NCBI GenBank assembly: GCA_016790515.1
Contig: JAEUOY010000173.1
Location: 1 to 64,000, forward strand
Length of the DNA: 64,000 nt
Reading direction: 5' to 3'
Origin: Burkholderiaceae bacterium
GTDB lineage: Bacteria; Pseudomonadota; Gammaproteobacteria; Burkholderiales; Burkholderiaceae_C
This document shows positions 10,306 through 17,780 of the stretch, piece after piece. Each line of letters opens with the position of its first letter. Position 1 is the first letter of the stretch. The notes under the pieces were generated by a model. It worked only from the letters and a program-made list of their open reading frames with translations. It did no database searches and was not told where the DNA came from. The position numbers were made by a program, and so were the translations under genes.

Positions 10306-12567
10306 TCAACGTTCGATGGTCGCCGGCCTGGCGCCGACGGGCGCCTGCAGGTTCGACTTGCGGCGCAGCAGGTACAGCGCGTAGAGGCCGAGGAAGACGC
10401 TGCCGGCCGCGAAGACGATGTCACCGGGCACCCGCAGCCAGACCAGGCTCTCCATCACCGGCGAGTGGATCACCTCCGGCGAGCGGGCGTACCACAGGCC
10501 GGTCGTGATCGCGTGATAGGCCTGGTAGATGCCAGCGGGCAGCAGCGACATGAACACCATCATCGCCAGGCCGATGTTCAGGCTCCAGAAGGCGGGCTTC
10601 AGGAACCGGTCGGCATGCAGCGCGCGGTCGTACAGGCCGCGCAGGCAGAACAGCATCAGGCCGATGCCGAGCATGCCGTACACGCCGAACAGCGCCGCAT
10701 GGCCGTGGGCCGCCGTCATGTTCAGCCCTTGCACGTAGTACAGCGAGGCGGGCGGGTTGATGGCGAAGCCGAGCAGCCCCGCGCCGACGGTGTTCCAGAA
10801 GCCGACCGCGACGAAGGACAGGATGACCCACTTGTACGCACCCAGCCAGGCCACGTTCCTCGAGCGTCGCCAGGTCTGCAGGGCCTCCAGGCCGATCAGC
10901 GTCAGCGGCACGACTTCGAGCGCCGAGAACACCGCGCCGACGGCAATCACCGAGGTCGGCGTGCCGGTCCAGTACAGGTGGTGCAGCGTGCCCAGGATGC
11001 CGCCGAACAGGAAGACGATGGTCTCGGCGACGATGGCACGGTTGGCCGACGCCGCTCGCACCAGGCCCAGGTTCGTGAAGATCAGCGCGACGACCGCGGT
11101 GGCGAAGACCTCGAAGAAGCCTTCGACCCACAGGTGCACGAGCCACCAGCGCCAGTACTCGATCATCGAGTAGTGCGTGTGCTGCCCCCAGGTGAGCGAG
11201 GTGGCGTAGAAGCCGCCGATGCAGGTCGCCGACAGGAACACCATCGCGATCAGGCCGCGGGTCTCCGAAGGCTTCTTCAGCGCGGGCCACAGCGCGCGGC
11301 CCAGCAGCAAGACCCAGAACAGCAGGCCGACGAACAGCAGCACCTGCCAGAAGCGGCCCATGCTGGTGAACTCGAGGCCCTGGTTGCCGAACCAGAAGCT
11401 GTAGTCGATGCCGCGGTGCTGCAGCGTGCCCAGCCAGCCGGTGATGGTCGAGCCCAGGACGACGACGATGAGCGCCCAGAACAGGGCATCCACGCCGAGC
11501 TTCTGGAATCTGGGTTCACGGCCCGAGAGCAGCGGCGCGACGTACAGGCCGGTGGCGAGCCAGGCGGTGGCGATCCAGAAGATGCCGATCTGGGTGTGGA
11601 CCGTGCGGCTGATGGTGTAGGGCAGGACCTGCGCCAGCGGGATGCCGAAGAACGACTGGCCTTCGACCGCATAGTGCGCGGTGACGACGCCCATGCCGAT
11701 CTGCAGCAGCATCAGGCCGATGACGGTGAAGAAGTACTTGCGGGTCGCCTTCATCGACGGCGTGGCCTTGGCGCCCAGCAGCGGGTCGGTCTTCGGCACG
11801 GCAGCCTGCTCTTCGTGCGCGTCGCCCTTGTGCAGCCACAGCATCGCGGCGATGCCGGCCAGCAGCAGGATGATGCTGGCCATCGACCACATCGCGGCCG
11901 ATCCGGTCATCGTGTTGCCGACCAGCGGCTCGTGCGGCCAGTTGCTGGTGTAGGACAGGCCGGTCTCGCCCGGGCGGTCGGTGGTGGCGGCCCAGGCGGA
12001 CCAGAAGAAGAAGGCGGTGAGCGCCTGGCGGTGTTCCTTCTCGGGCAGCGCGTCTTCGGTCATCGCGTACTGGTCGCGCAGCTTCTCGAGCTTCGGGTCG
12101 GTGCCGAACAGGCCTTCGTAGTGCGACGCGACGGCGCGGATGGCCTGGGCACGCTCCCGGGAAACGGTGATCCGGCCCGTGGTCTCGTCGTAGGTGTTGC
12201 GCCGCATCTCGGCGCGCACACGCGAGTCGACGGCGGCCTTGTCGGCTTCATCGAGCTGGGCGCCGGCGCTGCGGATCGTCTGCAACGTCGTCGCCTCGCG
12301 GTGCAGCCAGTCGGCTGACCAGTCGGGCGCGACGTAGCTGCCATGGCCCCACACGGTGCCGAGTTGCTGGCCGCCCGCGGCCAGCCAGGCCTGCTGGCCC
12401 AACTGGACCTGCTCGCCGGTATAGAGCACCTCGCCCTCGGCCGTCACGACCTGCTTGGGGATGGGAGGGGCGAAGAGATAGATCTGCCATCCGAGGTACC
12501 CGAGGGCACCGAAGGACAGGACGAAGATGAGGCCCAGCCAGCGCCAGAGCCTGCTTGTGGCATTCAT
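10306..12567 (-). CDS. norB: quinol-dependent nitric oxide reductase (qNOR)
   Basis: A 753-aa member of the haem-copper oxidase superfamily that reduces two NO to N2O with electrons from quinol. The first membrane helix (about residues 10-32) and the large periplasmic N-terminal extension (to about 220) are those of the single-subunit qNOR rather than NorCB. The core follows with metal-binding histidines in TISRTVHTQIGIFW, WRWWLVHLWVEGFFEVFATA, GTLHHLYWTG and LNMTAAHGHAALFGVYGMLG. The protein is intact and sits in the inner membrane. It is the last gene of a DUF3079-DUF2249-norB string on the minus strand with an NsrR-like site upstream. Detoxification or a terminal denitrification branch are both possible, since no nirK/nirS or norC is in view. 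Confidence 0.95.
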   Translation of the reverse strand: MNATSRLWRWLGLIFVLSFGALGYLGWQIYLFAPPIPKQVVTAEGEVLYTGEQVQLGQQAWLAAGGQQLGTVWGHGSYVAPDWSADWLHREATTLQTIRSAGAQLDEADKAAVDSRVRAEMRRNTYDETTGRITVSRERAQAIRAVASHYEGLFGTDPKLEKLRDQYAMTEDALPEKEHRQALTAFFFWSAWAATTDRPGETGLSYTSNWPHEPLVGNTMTGSAAMWSMASIILLLAGIAAMLWLHKGDAHEEQAAVPKTDPLLGAKATPSMKATRKYFFTVIGLMLLQIGMGVVTAHYAVEGQSFFGIPLAQVLPYTISRTVHTQIGIFWIATAWLATGLYVAPLLSGREPRFQKLGVDALFWALIVVVLGSTITGWLGTLQHRGIDYSFWFGNQGLEFTSMGRFWQVLLFVGLLFWVLLLGRALWPALKKPSETRGLIAMVFLSATCIGGFYATSLTWGQHTHYSMIEYWRWWLVHLWVEGFFEVFATAVVALIFTNLGLVRAASANRAIVAETIVFLFGGILGTLHHLYWTGTPTSVIAVGAVFSALEVVPLTLIGLEALQTWRRSRNVAWLGAYKWVILSFVAVGFWNTVGAGLLGFAINPPASLYYVQGLNMTAAHGHAALFGVYGMLGIGLMLFCLRGLYDRALHADRFLKPAFWSLNIGLAMMVFMSLLPAGIYQAYHAITTGLWYARSPEVIHSPVMESLVWLRVPGDIVFAAGSVFLGLYALYLLRRKSNLQAPVGARPATIER

Positions 12568-14882: not shown

Positions 14883-17321
14883 TCAGCGTTCGGAGGCCAG
14901 CGTCAGCAGGACGTCGAGCAGCACGTTCGCCCCGCGCAGCAGATCGGCAGCCTCGGTGTGCTCGCGCGGGTTGTGGCTGATGCCCATCACGCTGGGCACG
15001 AAGATCATCGCCGACGGGCAGATCCTGGCCAGCATCTGCGCGTCGTGGCCCGCGCCCGAGGTCATGCGCCGCGTCCGGTGCCCGCGCGCCCGGGCACTGG
15101 CTTCGATGAGCCGCACCAGGCGTTCGTCGAAGCGCACCGGCTCGAAGCGGGCCAGCCGCCGCGTCTCGACCGACACCGACTGTTCGATACCCAGACGCCG
15201 GACGAAATCCGCCAGCTCCTGCTCGGCACGCTGCAGCGTCGCCTCGTCGGTGTTGCGCAGGTCCACCCTTACGGTGGCGCGCTCGGCGATCACGTTGATC
15301 AGGTTGGGGTGCAGGGCCATGGCGCCGACCGTCGCCACCTGGCTGCCGCCGTAGCGCTGCGCCAGCTCACGCACGAAGACGGCGATCGCCGCCGCGCAGT
15401 AGCCGGCGTCGCGGCGCAGCCGCATCGGCGTGGTGCCGGCGTGGTTGGACTGTCCGGTGATCGTGAACTCCTGCCAGGAGATGCCCTGCAGGTCCTGCAC
15501 CGCGCCGATCTCGAGGCCCTCGGCCTCCATCACCGGGCCTTGCTCGATGTGGAGTTCGACATAGGCATGCGGCACGATGGCCCCGCAGGCCATGTCGCCC
15601 GCATAGCCGATGCGCGACAGCTCGTCGCCCAGCCGCTTGCCATCGCTGTCGAGGCTGCCCAGTGCCTGCTCGAGCGGATGGCCGCCCGCATGGACCAGCG
15701 AGCCCATCATGTCCGGCTGGAAGCGCACACCTTCCTCGTTCGTGAACGCCGCCACGACCAGCGGCCGCTCCAGCACCCGCTGGCGATCGTTGAGCCAGCG
15801 CACCACCTCGAGCCCGGCCAGCACGCCGTAGTGGCCGTCGTAGCGGCCGCCGGTGGCCACGGTATCGATGTGCGAGCCGGTCATCACCGGCGCGGCGTCG
15901 GTCCGGTCGGCACGGATGCCGAAGATGTTGCCGATGCGGTCGACGCGGACCACGAGCCCCAGTGCCTTCATCCAGCGCACGAGCTGGTCGCGGCCCCGCT
16001 GGTCGGCATCGGTCAGCGCGATGCGGCAGACACCGCCGCCGTCGATGGCACCGATGGCCGCTTGGGCCGCGATCCGTTGCATCAGCCGCGCCTGCGAGAG
16101 GCCCTCGCGATCGAGCCAGGCGCGCTGTGCCGCCAGCACGTCGTCGGCCGCTCGCCCGACGATGCCCGCATACACGCCGGGGGCGGTGGCGCCCTCGGTG
16201 CTGATCAGCAGGACGCGGGACTGCGCGTCGAGTCTCGCCGCCTGTCGACCCGCGTCCGATTCCATCAGCGCCTGCAGCGCGGCCAGTCCCGCGACCGCGG
16301 ACTCGCCGGCGACCAGCGGCACATCGCCGTGCACGCCCTCGGCGAGCAGGCGCATCGCGGCTTCGGCCTGTGCATCGGAGACCGTCATGAAGAGGTCGAC
16401 CGAGGGCTGCAGGAAACGCCACGCCAGCGGCGATGTCTCGCCACAGGCCAGGCCGGCCATCACCGAGTCGACGCTGCCCGATGCCCGGGCCGGCCGGCCG
16501 GCAATGGCACTCTGGTACAGGCAGTCGGCCTGTTCGGGCTCGACCACGATGACGCCGGGACGATGGGCGCCGTACCGCTCCCAGAACACGCCGACGATGG
16601 CGGCGGCCATGCCGCCGACACCACCTTGCAGGATCAGGTGGGTCCAGGGGCAGCCGCCGGCGTCGTCGGCGTTCGCCAGCAGTTCCTCGGCGACGATGCC
16701 GTAGCCCTGCATCACGTCGCGCGGCACCGCCTCGCAGCCCTCGCAGGAAGTGTCGGACACCACCTCCCAGCCGTTGACCCGGGCCAGGCGCGCCGCCTCG
16801 CCGACCGATTCGTCGTAGTTGCCGGCGATGCGGACGATCTCGGCGCCGAACGCCGCGATGGCTTGTTCCCGTTCGTCGCTGACCTTGGCGTGCAGCACGA
16901 TCACGCAGCGGCAACCGACACTCTGCGCTGCCGCCGCCAACGCGCGGCCGTGGTTGCCGTCGGTGGCGCTGACGACGACGAAGTCCTTCAGTGCCTGGGC
17001 GTGCCGGCCGGCGAGCAGCTCGGCGCCCGACCAGCCGTGCTGCGCGAAACGCCGCTGCACCAGCTGGAGCAGTGCGTTGGGCGCCCCCAGCGCCTTGAAG
17101 CTGCCGAGCGGCGAACGCTTCGATTCGTCCTTGACCGTGAGGCTGGCGATGCCGAGCGTCCTGGCCAGGCCCGGCAGCGACCAGGCGGGCGTCGGATACG
17201 CGGACAGCCCCGGCCAGCCGGCCAGGCGCCGGCTCGCGGCCCGGGCCTCGGACAAGCTCAGCAGCGACCGCAGGTCGGCGTCGTAGGGCCGGCGGACGGC
17301 GCGGGGGTTGGATCGGAACAT
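14883..17321 (-). CDS. fusion of diaminopropionate ammonia-lyase with an M20 carbamoylase/allantoate-amidohydrolase-type hydrolase
   Basis: One uninterrupted 812-codon frame. Residues 1 to about 400 are a PLP enzyme of the diaminopropionate ammonia-lyase (YgeX) type: the PLP lysine is in SPLGSFKALGA (K76), SATDGNHG gives D121, VSDTSCEG gives D190, and the phosphate loop is LQGGVGGMAAA. Residues from about 408 to the end are a dinuclear-metal M20 hydrolase of the N-carbamoyl-L-amino acid hydrolase/allantoate amidohydrolase group. They open with IDGGGVCRIALTDAD and keep GSHIDTVATGGRYDGHYGV (H484, D495), FTNEEGVRF (E529, E530), ELHIEQGP, SGAGHDAQ and SHNPREHT. Both halves look complete. In E. 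coli, ygeX and the M20 gene ygeY are neighbours, so the fusion joins two enzymes already linked by genome context. It is divergent from yaaA across 459 bp. Confidence 0.85.
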   Translation of the reverse strand: MFRSNPRAVRRPYDADLRSLLSLSEARAASRRLAGWPGLSAYPTPAWSLPGLARTLGIASLTVKDESKRSPLGSFKALGAPNALLQLVQRRFAQHGWSGAELLAGRHAQALKDFVVVSATDGNHGRALAAAAQSVGCRCVIVLHAKVSDEREQAIAAFGAEIVRIAGNYDESVGEAARLARVNGWEVVSDTSCEGCEAVPRDVMQGYGIVAEELLANADDAGGCPWTHLILQGGVGGMAAAIVGVFWERYGAHRPGVIVVEPEQADCLYQSAIAGRPARASGSVDSVMAGLACGETSPLAWRFLQPSVDLFMTVSDAQAEAAMRLLAEGVHGDVPLVAGESAVAGLAALQALMESDAGRQAARLDAQSRVLLISTEGATAPGVYAGIVGRAADDVLAAQRAWLDREGLSQARLMQRIAAQAAIGAIDGGGVCRIALTDADQRGRDQLVRWMKALGLVVRVDRIGNIFGIRADRTDAAPVMTGSHIDTVATGGRYDGHYGVLAGLEVVRWLNDRQRVLERPLVVAAFTNEEGVRFQPDMMGSLVHAGGHPLEQALGSLDSDGKRLGDELSRIGYAGDMACGAIVPHAYVELHIEQGPVMEAEGLEIGAVQDLQGISWQEFTITGQSNHAGTTPMRLRRDAGYCAAAIAVFVRELAQRYGGSQVATVGAMALHPNLINVIAERATVRVDLRNTDEATLQRAEQELADFVRRLGIEQSVSVETRRLARFEPVRFDERLVRLIEASARARGHRTRRMTSGAGHDAQMLARICPSAMIFVPSVMGISHNPREHTEAADLLRGANVLLDVLLTLASER

Positions 17322-17780
17322 GGCAGGGGGGCTGTGCAGGTCAGGAAGGGGAGTCGTCGCTGCCGTCTTCAGCGGGCTGTCGTTGTCATGGCGCTTGCTC
17401 CTCGAAGCCGATGCGGCGATTGTTGGCGCATGGGGGCGCGCATCCACCGAGATTTCAGTCGCCGACGACGCCTTTGTGTCGTCATGGCTTGCGCAGGATC
17501 GATGACGTCGTGGGCAGCGAGATGGGCTCGATCCGACCGGGCCCTGGCCGGTGCAGCCGCCGGGCCCGCGGCGTCGGGCCCGGCGCAGGGAATCGGGCGG
17601 GCAAGGGCGGTGGCCCGAACCCGGGTTCGGCTTCCATGTGATGATCGACGGCGCAAGACCGGGTCGCCGGCAGCTGGCCGGGCGCCTCGCGCGGCGCCCG
17701 GCTGCCGCGAAGGCGCCGGGTCGCCGCAGTGGCCTGCGCGGTCGCCGGACGGCGCAGATCGACGGATCCACCGACTACCC
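17322..17780. other. divergent intergenic region between the fusion gene and yaaA
   Basis: About 460 bp without a supported gene. One inverted repeat, GACGAC-N8-GTCGTC at 17464-17483, could be a regulator site. No strong -10/-35 pair was seen and the fusion gene start at 17321 lacks an obvious Shine-Dalgarno. Confidence 0.4.

Follow-up and report, generated by a model that had tools for sequence, protein, structure and literature searches.

A conserved natural fusion of diaminopropionate ammonia-lyase with a carbamoylase-type M20 hydrolase, possibly acting on ureido-diaminopropionate

A single reading frame in a 64,000-nucleotide stretch of Burkholderiaceae DNA (contig JAEUOY010000173.1; the whole stretch is called the window below) joins a diaminopropionate ammonia-lyase (DAPAL) to a metal hydrolase of the M20 hydantoinase/carbamoylase type. 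The fusion is real, conserved and common to several bacteria. Its parts come from families already known, and E. coli offers an earlier case of DAPAL coupled to an M20 hydrolase. We tentatively interpret the protein as a bifunctional, catabolic ureido-diaminopropionate hydrolase/lyase, in which the two halves would probably act one after the other, hydrolase first. The gene and its parts are arranged as follows:

14883..17321, minus strand: fusion gene, 812 amino acids, ATG at 17321 and stop at 14885-14883, frame uninterrupted
16137..17321, minus strand: DAPAL domain, residues 1-395, with K76, D121 and D190 (PRK08206; Foldseek)
16095..16148, minus strand: linker, residues 392-409, a predicted helix (392-405) and a short turn (AlphaFold model; alignments of fused proteins)
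14886..16094, minus strand: M20 hydantoinase/carbamoylase domain, residues 410-812 (TIGR01879; Foldseek match to 5i4m)

The original description gave no strand for the gene. The mechanically defined reading frame extends further 5' to a GTG at 17771; relatives align only from about the ATG at 17321. Pfam recognizes PALP at residues 42-375 (188 bits) and Peptidase_M20 at residues 481-806 (91 bits) of the 812-residue protein. In NCBIfam, residues 5-395 match the diaminopropionate ammonia-lyase model PRK08206 with 466.3 bits (cut-off 276), while the lyase half stays under the cut-off of the YgeX equivalog TIGR03528 (293.6 vs 532.25 bits). Foldseek matches this half to E. coli DAPAL, 4d9i (TMt 0.87). 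K76, D121 and D190 align with the corresponding lysine and aspartates of E. coli YgeX; by the roles in YgeX, we take K76 to be the PLP lysine and D121 and D190 the two catalytic aspartates.

The hydrolase half belongs to the carbamoylase/allantoate-amidohydrolase branch of M20 and lies outside the YgeY family. Residues 412-807 match the hydantoinase/carbamoylase model TIGR01879 with 402 bits (NCBIfam cut-off 204), and Foldseek matches the half to the carbamoylase-family structure 5i4m (TMt 0.84). The AllC allantoate deiminase equivalog TIGR03176 was not reached (277.3 bits, cut-off 597.75), and the YgeY models TIGR03526 and PRK13004 (cut-offs 321.5 and 321 bits) did not appear among the 25 top-scoring of 60 NCBIfam rows, a list that went down to 60 bits at its 25th row. 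TIGR01879 enzymes of known substrate act mainly on carbamoyl compounds. At 23 positions the fused proteins agree with hydrolases linked to D-carbamoylase genes, and both differ from a paralogue that lies beside dihydropyrimidinase. E. coli AllC matches these two groups at 10 of the positions and the paralogue at 2; at the other 11 it matches neither side.

With both halves above NCBIfam cut-offs, the frame does hold two complete enzyme domains, as originally predicted. The active sites described as intact (K76, D121, D190, H484, D495, E529, E530) are all present and are invariant in the fused relatives, as are H591, N676, R689 and H783. We take H484, D495, E529, E530, H591 and H783 to be the metal-site residues and the base glutamate. 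Invariance was read from an alignment that sets the window protein against 16 of its fused relatives; a script alignment (21 rows, 20 fused loci) agrees.

The same architecture occurs as an uninterrupted frame in at least 17 further distinct genomes or contigs, the window being counted separately; they come from 20 loci, three of which are second copies of the same sequence. Ten of 200 genomes of the same family, its own genome included, carry the full fusion without stops. In a second collection, where at least 597 stretches matched, 11 of the best 80 loci are fused in one frame, 26 encode the hydrolase and DAPAL as separate genes no more than 6 kb apart on the same strand, in both gene orders, and 43 show one of the two genes only. 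Among these best loci the homologues are therefore not all split near residue 400. The 11 fused loci come from Variovorax, Ideonella, Rubrivivax, Aquabacterium, Acidovorax, Rhodoferax, other Burkholderiales/Burkholderiaceae and one proteobacterium. Loci of three Variovorax strains (L045, L052 and L053) have the neighbourhood of another (L107/L027) and encode the lyase without the hydrolase domain, which is fused in that other strain; this contrast is domain loss inside one genus.

Sequencing, assembly or a frameshift could in principle have joined two neighbouring genes, as the genome around the window is a draft with parts missing and separate adjacent pairs occupy those 26 loci. Such an artefact is extremely improbable. 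We rejected it on the open frame and similar linker in at least 17 distinct relatives, the invariant residues and the codon periodicity, which is continuous through the junction: third-position GC stays at 0.85-0.96 over the entire frame. Linker residue Q399 is invariant among the aligned fused proteins. An AlphaFold model built from 17 fused sequences (mean pLDDT 80, pTM 0.79) predicts that residues 392-405 form a helix (with block means of 91 and 88) running into the second domain, which is partly less certain, with four short segments below 50.

In 14 of 17 fused loci, a gene for an M20D deacylase (>250 bits) lies within 100 bp of the lyase, the fused gene following it; these M20D genes are 63-100% identical to the Variovorax one. 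An Lrp-type regulator (>60 bits) is present in 11 of the 17 and D-carbamoylase in none. Seven of ten lyase-only loci keep the M20D-lyase pair without the hydrolase (gap ≤40 bp). In the split loci of the sister group described below, M20D exceeds the threshold in 8 of 12, with pieces of it in two more, and Lrp is found in 11 of 12. The M20D protein passes the TIGR01891 cut-off and scores 317 bits with the model of the N-acetyl-diaminobutyrate deacetylase DoeB2, below its cut-off of 550. The constant partner of the fused-type lyase is thus M20D, as would suit N-acyl substrates. Next to the window gene there is neither an M20D nor an Lrp-type gene; for M20D its genome holds only paralogues of 40-45% elsewhere, and the window neighbours (NorB, YaaA) give no functional link to the fusion. 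The nitric oxide reductase NorB gene (10306-12567, minus strand) includes a cytochrome-c-like N-terminal domain. Between 13240 and 13980 on the minus strand, translations in two frames are broken by stops and frame changes, and the region looks like a decayed ars remnant. By eye we take its pieces to resemble an ArsC-type arsenate reductase and an ACR3-type arsenite transporter; the two open reading frames scanned there had no Pfam match.

The history of the fusion was examined with trees of both halves. In a hydrolase tree under the C20 mixture model (52 rows, including 22 of the 62 loci of the nearest unfused hydrolases, group B), the fused domains group as a single clade (98/92) whose sister is the M20D/Lrp-type hydrolases of split loci (100/99 for the two together), and this pair adjoins the D-carbamoylase-linked group. 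A quick tree also returned one fused clade (97) with its position among the other groups unresolved, and a 71-row LG tree joined the fused and split M20D types (98/99) and left fused monophyly open. The clade result depends on the model and the rows, and the C20 tree is the one relied upon. The fused lyases, in a tree of 45 hand-picked rows, are not one clade; a tree constrained to unite them is worse by 174 log units (AU p 2e-37). The fused proteins are basal in their own clade, lyase-only relatives and those of hydrolase-lyase order are nested within, and the fusion trait requires 6 changes on this tree.

Because the fused hydrolases form one clade and the fused lyases do not, the simplest reading is a single fusion followed by repeated loss of the hydrolase domain. 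Among the Pseudomonas/Cupriavidus lyases, again on the simplest reading, the gene in front would be a hydrolase of its own, drawn from the sister clade. A search for hydrolase relics downstream of 11 lyase-only genes gave nothing significant (best E 0.8). Several lyase-only proteins have a linker-like AAQ..WL tail, a possible relic; the unrelated split lyases compared with them were covered as far as their matches extended.

Urate degradation offers a precedent for the pairing of such enzymes. As two papers describe (PMC12507026, PMC12990295), the reductive urate pathway removes two ureido groups from 2,3-diureidopropionate to give diaminopropionate, which YgeX converts to pyruvate. They report that albizziin (3-ureidoalanine) with YgeY and YgeX yields pyruvate in vitro (PMC12507026; also PMC12990295). 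Which ureido group leaves first is disputed there (PMC12507026, PMC12990295).

The surroundings of the nearest unfused hydrolases resemble this pathway in part. A D-carbamoylase-like nitrilase gene accompanies them at 53 of 62 loci (within 1.5 kb at 41) and is absent at 9. The same 62 loci include DAPAL at 23, Se-type xanthine dehydrogenase (XDH; by similarity) at 15, SsnA at 13, an F420 LLM oxidoreductase at 9, a D-aminoacylase-like gene at 7, a peptide-type binding protein at 7, hydantoinase at 4, a YgeY/ArgE-like gene at 3, YgfK at 2 and Lrp at 1. As a control, we used paralogous TIGR01879 hydrolases at 27 loci (after three fusion loci had been taken out; two of the 27 overlap), where a dihydropyrimidinase-like gene occurs within flanks of up to 1.5 kb at 16 and D-carbamoylase at none. 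Nine loci (L082, L083, L084, L094, L095, L096, L099, L102, L103), on contigs of Acidimicrobiia, Ilumatobacteraceae or other Actinomycetota, combine the hydrolase with D-carbamoylase, Se-type XDH, an SsnA-like protein and the F420 LLM oxidoreductase. These nine apparently encode a urate-type reductive pathway in which the TIGR01879 hydrolase and a nitrilase-type D-carbamoylase replace YgeY and YgeW/UacY. In the two loci scanned, L082 and L091, the XDH exceeds the TIGR03311 cut-off, and the SsnA proteins score best with SsnA models and remain under the cut-offs.

Other arrangements are found as well. Near the hydrolase of L068, L077, L091 and L093, and by eye L037, lies another PALP-type enzyme of about 486 amino acids, cysteine-synthase-like (the L077 copy was scanned). 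It may replace DAPAL, which was not detected at four of its five loci. Rhizobium sp. ACO-34A is annotated with two divergent groups, containing dihydropyrimidinase and a transporter, DAPAL, the hydrolase and an N-carbamoyl-D-amino-acid hydrolase. In Paraburkholderia, Pseudomonas, Shinella and R. beringeri, the hydrolase and DAPAL lie together, each time with an annotated Lrp-type gene, and the split clusters of the last three also include an annotated M20-type or YxeP hydrolase.

Whole-genome searches, which covered D-carbamoylase, Se-type XDH and SsnA, found no close D-carbamoylase in ten fused genomes (best matches ≤34% identity) and no Se-type XDH over the cut-off (best 509 bits vs 830, in G046). 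Such an XDH was also missing from three unfused genomes of the D-carbamoylase type (0/13 in all). The best match to E. coli SsnA in the ten fused genomes had 29% identity and two genomes had no match; this is a weak test, as true cluster SsnA proteins themselves reach only 31-38% with that query. The window's genome is 82% complete, which makes absences there weaker still. On the D-carbamoylase and XDH results, we rejected a complete urate pathway for these fused genomes; ureido- or acyl-diaminopropionate would therefore be imported.

The mechanism we propose is that the C-terminal metal hydrolase would act on an N-carbamoyl-2,3-diaminopropionate, of which 3-ureidoalanine is the likeliest, and strip it of its carbamoyl (ureido) group, releasing CO2, ammonia and 2,3-diaminopropionate, which the N-terminal PLP lyase would break down to pyruvate and two ammonia. 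The fusion would in this way perform the last two steps of ureido-diaminopropionate breakdown. Beside the unfused relatives, the D-carbamoylase would take the 2-ureido group, the role proposed for UacY or YgeW, with the 3-ureido group falling to the TIGR01879 hydrolase. Fused genomes would obtain ureido- or acyl-diaminopropionate from outside, for example the plant amino acid albizziin, and the hydrolase domain may add a second, ureido, entry to a lyase that is perhaps supplied mainly by an acyl substrate. The substrate, the order of the steps and the import are what we infer from families and gene contexts.

For action on a ureido compound we counted the context of the hydrolase family (D-carbamoylase at 53 of 62 loci, 0 of 27 in the paralogue control), the pairing of hydrolase and DAPAL in both gene orders (26 of the best 80 loci) and the agreement with AllC at 10 of 23 group-specific positions; the substrate of AllC, too, is a diureido acid. 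We also counted the formation of pyruvate from albizziin by YgeY and YgeX (PMC12507026). Counted against it were the lack of a close D-carbamoylase or Se-type XDH in the fused genomes, a lyase score under the YgeX equivalog cut-off, and the tight M20D linkage of fused and lyase-only loci, which would suit an imported, perhaps acyl, substrate. The hydrolase context points to ureido forms, the N-carbamoyl option of the original prediction; the lyase context points to the M20D deacylase.

It is possible, if doubtful, that the hydrolase half, with or beside M20D, takes N-acyl-diaminopropionate as its substrate and cuts off the acyl part (acetyl, oxalyl, succinyl or a plant conjugate) before the lyase degrades the product. 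M20D within 100 bp of the lyase at 14 of 17 fused and 7 of 10 lyase-only loci argues for this, together with its presence, whole or in pieces, in the sister-group split loci and the Lrp-type regulator of fused (11/17) and split (11/12) loci. The mainly carbamoyl substrates of TIGR01879 enzymes and the D-carbamoylase genes beside the nearest unfused hydrolases argue against it. No gene specific to oxalyl compounds was noticed. We consider it unlikely that the two activities are unrelated or serve parallel substrates (such as N-carbamoyl amino acids generally), with expression or stability as the reason why the fusion persists. Several losses of the hydrolase domain from a lyase that stays in place indicate that the lyase can do without it, and no lyase was detected at 39 of the 62 loci of the nearest unfused hydrolases, some on short contigs; yet hydrolase and lyase meet repeatedly, fused and in lyase-hydrolase and hydrolase-lyase order.

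Extending the proposed ureido hydrolase/lyase function, the fusion might be a one-protein aerobic form of the last two reductive-urate steps, using a non-YgeY branch of M20. Its hydrolase would stem from the family found in urate-type clusters, in Acidimicrobiia as well as Proteobacteria, with hydrolase and D-carbamoylase in place of YgeY and YgeW/UacY. Burkholderiales would live with its help on ureido- or acyl-diaminopropionate taken up from outside, e.g. albizziin. We regard this wider picture as rather doubtful. If true, it would give a substrate class to a family annotated only as 'hydantoinase/carbamoylase' or 'allantoate amidohydrolase', and would mean that urate-type ureido steps arose with non-orthologous enzymes. 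It would also provide a single protein for testing the disputed removal of the 2- versus the 3-ureido group, with pyruvate as read-out, and a way to recognize from their genomes bacteria that break down the non-protein amino acids of legumes.

Searches of the open-access literature found no paper on a natural DAPAL-carbamoylase fusion; this is weak evidence of absence, in line with the original remark that no described fusion was known. The closest known system is in E. coli, where ygeX and ygeY do lie side by side, as had been noted (3,007,510-3,009,975). YgeX shares its lyase fold and catalytic residues with the fusion, and YgeX and YgeY together share with it the proposed logic of consecutive ureido hydrolysis to diaminopropionate followed by a PLP lyase yielding pyruvate. 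By this analogy (PMC12507026), the idea that the hydrolase feeds diaminopropionate to the lyase stands in outline; nothing points to the N-oxalyl form suggested with it. However, the E. coli enzymes are encoded by two genes and YgeY belongs to another M20 branch, whereas the fusion is one polypeptide with a TIGR01879 hydrolase and lacks the upstream urate genes of the reductive system nearby. TIGR01879 L-carbamoylases, beta-ureidopropionases (8c46, 8apz, 1r3n) and the Burkholderia structures 5i4m and 5thw have the fold and the aligned His, Asp, Glu, Asn and Arg residues of the hydrolase half, but they are separate enzymes (about 32-47% identity) and none of those listed unites both folds. E. 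coli AllC is of the same superfamily but comes without a lyase. The split DAPAL-hydrolase pairs of Rhizobium, Pseudomonas, Halomonas, Alcaligenes and others differ in that the enzymes are encoded separately, in many cases beside a D-carbamoylase or M20D gene and sometimes in reversed order, but they place the same two families side by side.
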